A stretch of 33,802 bases of DNA from a bacterium (GTDB lineage Bacteria; Planctomycetota; UBA1135; GCA-002686595), in assembly GCA_030428965.1 (NCBI GenBank), contig JAUIEE010000005.1:1-33802 (forward strand), read 5' to 3'. Under the pieces are notes generated by a model. That model worked only from the letters and a program-made list of their open reading frames with translations. It had not been told where the DNA came from and did not search any database. The translations under genes were made by a program, and so were the position numbers. Below are positions 1-19,382 of this stretch, piece by piece (the first letter of the stretch is position 1; each line of letters starts with the position of its first letter).

Positions 1-9014
<9,014 letters not shown>

Positions 9015-17743: not shown

Positions 17744-18259
17744 ATGGAACTCGAGACACCAGGCATCCAAAGCCTGCCGGAAATCGTAGGGGCCCTGCTC
17801 GAGGCTCGCCCCCAGCGCTCGCGCTTTCGAATCCTGTTCGACGCGGTGCACCGCAGCGAGCTGGGATCCGCCCTGGCGCTCTGGCGCCTCTCCCAGGGGC
17901 GCTGGATGCCCCTCCTCGAGCGCGGTCCCGAGGATGCCCTCCCCCCCAGCAGCCTGATCCAGGCCGTACTGGCCGGGGAAGTCGCGATGGAACTTCCGGG
18001 GCGAACGAGCCTCCTCAAGACGGACGAGGTCGACGGAGACCAGGTCGCCCTGATCCTGGGCGAGGTCAGCTGTTCCCGCGAGACCCTGAACCTCGTGGAC
18101 GGCCTGCTCACGATGGCGGGGCTGATGGAGAGGGAAGCGGAACCCCTCGCTGAAATCTTCGAGCCCCCGCTGAGCTCGGCCCGCCCCTCGGACCTCCCTC
18201 TCCGCTGGACGCCGTCGCTGGGACAAGAACCCCACATCGATCAGCCCCCGCCCGCGTAA
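17744..18259 (+). CDS. Hypothetical protein, possibly a degenerate GAF-like domain
   Basis: MELETPGIQSLPEIVGALLEARPQRSRFRILFDAV...; AGGAGAG RBS upstream of ATG; natural amino-acid composition compared with the antisense frame. Confidence 0.65.
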   Translation: MELETPGIQSLPEIVGALLEARPQRSRFRILFDAVHRSELGSALALWRLSQGRWMPLLERGPEDALPPSSLIQAVLAGEVAMELPGRTSLLKTDEVDGDQVALILGEVSCSRETLNLVDGLLTMAGLMEREAEPLAEIFEPPLSSARPSDLPLRWTPSLGQEPHIDQPPPA

Positions 18260-18309: not shown

Positions 18310-18315
18310 TATACT
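18310..18315 (+). promoter_or_regulatory. Candidate -10 element (TATACT)
   Basis: TATACT 7 nt upstream of a perfect UUCG hairpin; no good -35 hexamer at 17 nt spacing. Confidence 0.4.
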
Positions 18316-18321
18316 CGGATC

Positions 18322-18458
18322 CGTAGGGGTTCGCCCCTACAAGAGATTCTGTTGGGAGGTGTGCGCACTTTGCGAGCAGTGCCAGCACCCGGGAAGCCCG
18401 ACAGAACCTCCTCTCTCCCTCGGGCCGGTGGTTGGCAAGGATCACCGGCCCCCTTTTT
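18322..18458 (+). ncRNA. Candidate structured small RNA of about 137 nt, family unknown
   Basis: No convincing ORF. Hairpin 1 GTAGGGG-TTCG-CCCCTAC (18323-18340); long irregular hairpin 18342-18416 (TTCTGTTGGG/CCCGACAGAA, AGAGA/TCTCT, inner GGTG/CACC and GCACT/AGTGC); 3' terminator hairpin. Confidence 0.55.
18422..18458 (+). terminator. Rho-independent terminator
   Basis: Perfect 9-bp stem GGGCCGGTG (18422-18430) / CACCGGCCC (18443-18451), then CC and TTTTTATTT. Confidence 0.82.
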
Positions 18459-18497
18459 ATTTGGGGCCAGAAAAAAGGCGGCCCGAAGGCTCGTCGC

Positions 18498-19382
18498 TCA
18501 GATGGCCCGGCTGGCGAAAGCGCCGAAGCACTGCCCTTCGATCGTGAAGACCTGGACACGGTCCCCATCCCGATCCAGGACCGCCAGGCGCGTGCTGCGG
18601 TCATCTTGCCCGGGCTCGACGACCACGTCGCTCGGCTCCATCACGCAGCCTTCCTCGTCACCGCCCTGGGCCAGCTGACGCAGCAGGCGCCCCGCGGAAT
18701 CGAACAGGAGCAACGAGCTGGCTTCGCCTCCCGCGCACACGATGATGCGCCCGTCCTCGAGAGGTGCGACGGCCGTCGGCCAGAACCTCTGGGGCGACCG
18801 GCTCACGGGCGCGAACTGGAAGTGGAAGTCCCCGTCGCGGAAGACCTGCACCTGTCCCCCACCTCCCTCGGCCACGTACACGAAGCGCCCCGCCAGGGAG
18901 ATGCCTTGTACCCGATCGAACTGGCGATCGGCGTGGCCGCGCGGCCGCAGGGAACGGATCAGAGTTCCTTCCCCGTCGAACACCTGCACGGCGTGCCGCC
19001 GGAGCCCACCGCTGGCGACGAACAGCTGCCGACCATCGGTGTCCCCGCGCACCTCGACGTCCACGGGCGCGCGCACGAGTCCGGCCGTGTCGACGGCGGC
19101 AAGCCCCTCCAGGGACTCGGACAGGCCCGCCCCGAGTCCTCCGACCTCCTGGCCGAAAACGGTGAAGGTCCTCACCCGGGACGAGGGCGTATCCGCGATC
19201 CAGAGCAGCCGATCGTCGTCCACGGCGATCCCCGCGACAACCGAACGATGCACACGCTCGTCCCGGAACGAGAAGCCTTCCGAGAGTTCGCGGCCGTCGA
19301 GGTCGTAGGCGCGCACGTGCGCGGTCTTCTCGTGGGATCCCACGTAGAGGATCCCGCGGTGGAGGGTCAGGCTGCCTTGCAT
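18498..19382 (-). CDS. NHL-type beta-propeller protein
   Basis: Repeated blades such as HAVQVFDGEGTLIRSLRPRGHADRQFDRVQGISLAGRFVYVAEGGGGQVQVF and LAVLDRDGDRVQVFTIEGQCFGAF. Confidence 0.75.
   Translation of the reverse strand: MQGSLTLHRGILYVGSHEKTAHVRAYDLDGRELSEGFSFRDERVHRSVVAGIAVDDDRLLWIADTPSSRVRTFTVFGQEVGGLGAGLSESLEGLAAVDTAGLVRAPVDVEVRGDTDGRQLFVASGGLRRHAVQVFDGEGTLIRSLRPRGHADRQFDRVQGISLAGRFVYVAEGGGGQVQVFRDGDFHFQFAPVSRSPQRFWPTAVAPLEDGRIIVCAGGEASSLLLFDSAGRLLRQLAQGGDEEGCVMEPSDVVVEPGQDDRSTRLAVLDRDGDRVQVFTIEGQCFGAFASRAI

Follow-up and report, generated by a model that had tools for sequence, protein, structure and literature searches.

A previously undescribed structured RNA family with conserved unpaired elements, confined to one family of Planctomycetota

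The analysed window of 33,802 nucleotides (contig JAUIEE010000005.1 of assembly GCA_030428965.1, from a bacterium of the Planctomycetota) contains a compact plus-strand unit at 18310–18462, in which a -10 box is followed by a 5' hairpin with a UUCG loop, a hairpin shaped like a rod and an intrinsic terminator. It is flanked on the left by a gene for a 171-aa protein (17744–18259, plus strand) and on the right by a gene for an NHL-repeat protein (18498–19382, minus strand), both with their 3' end towards the unit. The 171-aa protein gave no match in a Pfam search and is related to the start of histidine-kinase-like proteins encoded at homologous loci. The predicted promoter is represented by the -10 element TATACT (18310–18315) and is followed, at the predicted transcription start, by the 5' hairpin with a 7-bp stem (GTAGGGG-TTCG-CCCCTAC, 18323–18340). 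The long rod (18343–18410), supported by the predicted fold and by covariation, is built from an outer helix (18343–18356 with 18397–18410, including TTCTGTTGGG at 18347–18356 that pairs with CCCGACAGAA at 18397–18406) and an inner helix (18358–18368 with 18379–18389). At its tip it carries an apical loop with the invariant core UGCGAGC (18371–18377), and between the two helices an asymmetric 3' bulge CGGGAAG (18390–18396) faces the A at 18357. A CU-rich linker, CUCUCUCCCUC (18411–18421), is single-stranded in the minimum free energy structure and is our proposed seed. The intrinsic terminator (18422–18462) has a T-rich tail, with CCTTTTTATTT following the stem, and the predicted RNA has a length of about 138 nt. 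An initial annotation, made from the sequence alone, had placed the -10 element, the 5' hairpin, the rod pairing with its inner stems and the terminator with its T-tract exactly where we find them, except that the terminator stem, given there as 9 bp, comprises 12 bp (18422–18451).

The predicted RNA was compared with shuffled sequences and proved much more stable, with a z of -3.06 for 18317–18470 and of -4.77 for 18323–18460, where none of 200 shuffles was equally stable. Neither a sigma-70 promoter pair of strict consensus at the unit nor a good -35 element in the window could be found. Among the 33 homologues having a 5' hairpin, however, 27 possess a TANNNT motif 3–8 nt upstream of it, and the motif is almost absent elsewhere within 60 nt, showing that the proposed -10 element and its spacing are a conserved feature and not a chance occurrence. 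The hairpin at this position is of different sequence in most homologues, and T makes up 54% of the 10 nt after their terminator stem. The unit had been described as free of open reading frames. Since the indels between homologues do not come in threes and no frame is open throughout all of them, it is indeed non-coding.

A search with the 4227 families of Rfam 15 at gathering score matched nothing in the window and nothing at the position of the RNA in 11 homologous loci, and relaxed thresholds yielded nothing real (best sub-threshold E 0.68). A match to the suhB/mmgR sRNA (RF00519) at 18389–18466 is at chance level, having 13.4 bits and an E of 2.5 with a gathering score of 41. SRP RNA and 6S RNA, both doubted from the start, can be set aside as well: the SRP RNA of this genome (RF00169) matches at a separate locus (G000:C77:35190–35287), and for 6S RNA (RF00013) there is no match in this genome, the 6S-like candidates of relatives are located at other loci and the fold shows no central bubble. 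The 6S-like RNAs of the family (L072–L075 and other loci) reach scores near the Rfam cut-off or lower, and it may be that current models miss a divergent 6S RNA in this lineage. A TPP riboswitch is located near one of the homologous loci (L151, 747–844, minus strand, 64 bits).

By BLAST against relatives, the RNA was recovered from most genomes of the host's family, each representing a different genus. When 85,462 species were scanned with a pattern, 34 records matched; most are titled Planctomycetota, among them the completely sequenced chromosome of strain Pla86 (CP036296), where the RNA is placed at about 3,700,120–3,700,290, and two are MAGs titled only 'bacterium'. Using a covariance model, we identified carriers in 63 of 81 genomes and 36 of 42 genera of the host's Planctomycetota family, and in 27 of its 29 good-quality genomes. 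When 393 genomes sampled evenly across the phylum were searched, matches were confined to this family, and a broader model (R2) together with a linker pattern allowing two mismatches gave nothing convincing in other families and non-carrier genera. The weak matches outside the carriers (≤30 bits) that we inspected (L170, L171, L184 and L249) looked like chance, several of them lying apparently in protein-coding DNA, and the single pattern match in IMG/VR, which could have pointed to a viral copy, is likewise chance with 11.9 bits. Pla86 shows a weak second match (L142, 4888–4973, minus strand, 31.7 bits) that lacks the loop sequence and is probably no real copy. Up to 7 copies occur per genome, several genomes having 4–7, and some copies are arranged in tandem. 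One locus (L123, G018:C7) has divergent copies at 5608, 8921 and 12638, which are 3–4 kb apart with genes between them and keep loop and bulge next to a shortened linker. Two genera harbour a larger variant of about 220 nt (L028, 1330–1560, G036; L029, 1300–1523, G013) in which each of three hairpins bears a UGCGAGC loop, followed by the same linker and terminator; its fold has a z of about -7.5.

A presence in 27 of 29 good-quality family genomes and a partly conserved gene neighbourhood would also be expected for the RNA of a housekeeping ribonucleoprotein, for instance a counterpart, specific to this lineage, of a known housekeeping RNA. We regard this as improbable, as SRP RNA is encoded elsewhere in this genome and was found in 39 of the 41 genomes searched, the 6S-like candidates of relatives lie at other loci, and the absence of the RNA from several genera of the family together with up to 7 diverged copies is unlike a core component.

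The RNA mostly sits by itself in an intergenic region, and its neighbours differ from homologue to homologue, so it is not the leader of one gene. Within this varied context one neighbourhood, with a histidine-kinase-like gene upstream and an esterase-like gene downstream, recurs, and this combination points to a vertically inherited stand-alone gene rather than to a leader or a mobile element. That the RNA ends in a terminator and, here as in many homologues, has convergent genes on its two sides could suggest a mere cis element, either a 3'UTR structure or a bidirectional terminator. This is very improbable, because the unit has its own conserved -10 element, neither flanking gene is constant among the homologues, some of which lack the convergent arrangement, and a terminator alone would not conserve loop, bulge and linker.

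Strong evidence for the structure comes from covariation. Two-sided changes were found in 27 of 35 pairs in a plain sequence alignment of 29 sequences, and in 33 of 35 pairs among 73 distinct sequences, whose alignment leans towards the structure because it was fitted to it. For the latter, controls with shuffled and slid pairings were calculated: the covariation score was 0.634 compared to 0.218 for shuffles, two-sided cells numbered 579 compared to 142, and 93% of the cells were paired compared to 71% in shuffles and at most 47% when slid. For both alignments, none of 500 shuffles reached the observed values in any of the five covariation measures. The support extends over rod and terminator, with 13 of 13 pairs in the outer helix, 11 of 11 in the inner helix and 9 of 11 in the terminator. 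G-U and U-G cells (232) are far more frequent than A-C and C-A cells (43), showing that the plus strand is the RNA. The locus is thus almost certainly an RNA gene, and the RNA constitutes a real, previously undescribed, lineage-specific structured RNA family. The massive compensatory change and the lack of a confident match to a known family also support the interpretation of the initial annotation as an undescribed stand-alone sRNA. The invariant unpaired elements, the CU-rich linker, the multiple copies and three-loop variants and the restriction to one family are new compared to it.

Conservation of the primary sequence follows the opposite pattern. While the helix positions mostly carry 0.1–1 bit of information, the UGCGAGC loop shows mostly 1.9–2.0 bits per position, in primary and divergent copies alike. 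The GGGAAG bulge has 2.0 bits in primary homologues and 1.0–1.75 in divergent copies and is missing from a few variants, and the linker (18412–18421) has 2.0 and 1.0–2.0 bits, respectively; both values are inflated, as some homologues were found by a pattern containing GGGAAGC and the linker. The same elements are present in the BLAST and model matches found without this pattern, and the loop lies outside of it, so its conservation does not result from ascertainment. Drifting helices combined with a loop, bulge and linker held near 2 bits are what one expects of a scaffold that presents recognition sequences. We also considered a GGGA-UCCC pseudoknot between bulge and linker, which is unsupported because some copies have lost one of the two but not the other: GGGAAG is absent and the linker kept in L026 and L158, and GGGAAG is kept and UCCC lost in the L123 copies.

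These elements might be read by a protein. CsrB titrates or guides CsrA, and in the same way the UGCGAGC loop and the GGGAAG bulge could be recognised by an RNA-binding protein that the RNA titrates or guides. We regard this explanation as the main alternative, possible but less probable than our preferred reading. The loop is the most constant element even when divergent copies are included, the variant of two genera displays it on three hairpins and several copies are found per genome, but most copies have only a single such loop, the linker is near-invariant too although it lies outside of the loop and bulge site, a search of 37 genomes of the lineage yielded no CsrA, and there is no known candidate protein. 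Even more speculative, and in our opinion rather doubtful, is the idea that an RNA-binding regulator, so far unrecognised, docks at loop and bulge and serves Planctomycetota lacking Hfq, ProQ and CsrA.

Our preferred reading, to which we assign a probability of about one half, is that of a stand-alone trans-acting sRNA whose linker, perhaps together with the loop, would pair with purine-rich mRNA leaders. We infer transcription, action in trans and pairing to mRNA as follows. RNA polymerase would start at the 5' hairpin, about 7 nt past the -10 box, and would stop at the terminator to release the RNA of about 138 nt, whose 5' end is probably protected by this hairpin. The rod might serve as a scaffold that shows the invariant loop and bulge and keeps the linker unpaired beside the terminator. 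The UCUCCC core of the linker could then pair in trans with G/A-rich stretches of mRNA leaders, and this pairing would block or alter translation without Hfq, ProQ or CsrA; loop and bulge might provide a second contact or the site for a protein partner.

Several observations bear on this model. The RNA exposes a UCCC motif, as UCUCUCCCUC, the CU-rich linker ahead of the terminator, is unpaired in the predicted fold and near-invariant. Hfq was found in 0 of 37 genomes of the lineage (family and order mates; controls gave a signal in 5), CsrA in 0 of the same 37 (controls gave a signal in 3), and ProQ was not detected in any of them with its positive controls giving a signal; a partnership depending on Hfq, ProQ or CsrA was therefore rejected. 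LhrC from Listeria monocytogenes has 111–114 nt and five copies, carries CU-rich UCCC motifs in loops and in a single-stranded stretch that pair with SD regions, and requires Hfq neither for its stability nor for the control of lapB; UCCC-type motifs of LhrC, RsaE and FsrA all pair with SD regions (PMC4132741). The similar linker, the Hfq-independence of LhrC and the missing detection of Hfq, ProQ and CsrA favour trans pairing via the linker, and the up to 7 copies per genome, as in LhrC, were also counted for it. Against the linker, some divergent copies have a shortened one and have lost UCCC but retain the UGCGAGC loop and GGGAAG, which favours loop and bulge as the core contact, and one loop occurring thrice in a single RNA also fits protein binding. 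A k-mer search for targets upstream of genes showed no enrichment, but with the crude gene starts used the SD itself was likewise not enriched, which leaves this search without power.

To our knowledge, few regulatory RNAs have been described for Planctomycetota. An RNA that is widespread, present in several copies and sharply conserved in its unpaired elements offers a concrete handle on post-transcriptional regulation in such bacteria, and as Pla86, a relative with a complete genome, carries the RNA, the question is directly testable. If the idea of a docking site were true, the RNA would be one half, and the first to become visible, of a new global system acting after transcription. The alignment and the model suffice for proposing an Rfam family.

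Compared to known systems, the RNA resembles SRP and 6S RNA in being rod-like and G+C-rich with one main copy per genome, but it has neither the SRP tetraloop nor the open bubble of 6S RNA. With the suhB/mmgR sRNA it shares a CU-rich stretch directly upstream of the terminator, whereas rod hairpin, loop and bulge have no counterpart there. The repeated loop motif within one RNA in two genera and the multiple copies recall the CsrB/RsmZ sponges, from which it differs by the loop sequence (UGCGAGC instead of GGA), by the one such loop in most copies and by a lineage in which CsrA was not detected. The likeness to LhrC lies in the multiple copies and the exposed UCCC motif, but LhrC belongs to a different phylum, has three CU motifs instead of one CU linker with a UGCGAGC loop and a GGGAAG bulge, and has no demonstrated sequence or structural homology to this RNA. 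LhrC/RsaE-type describes a way of working and not one homologous family, and the RNA described here is not related to them.
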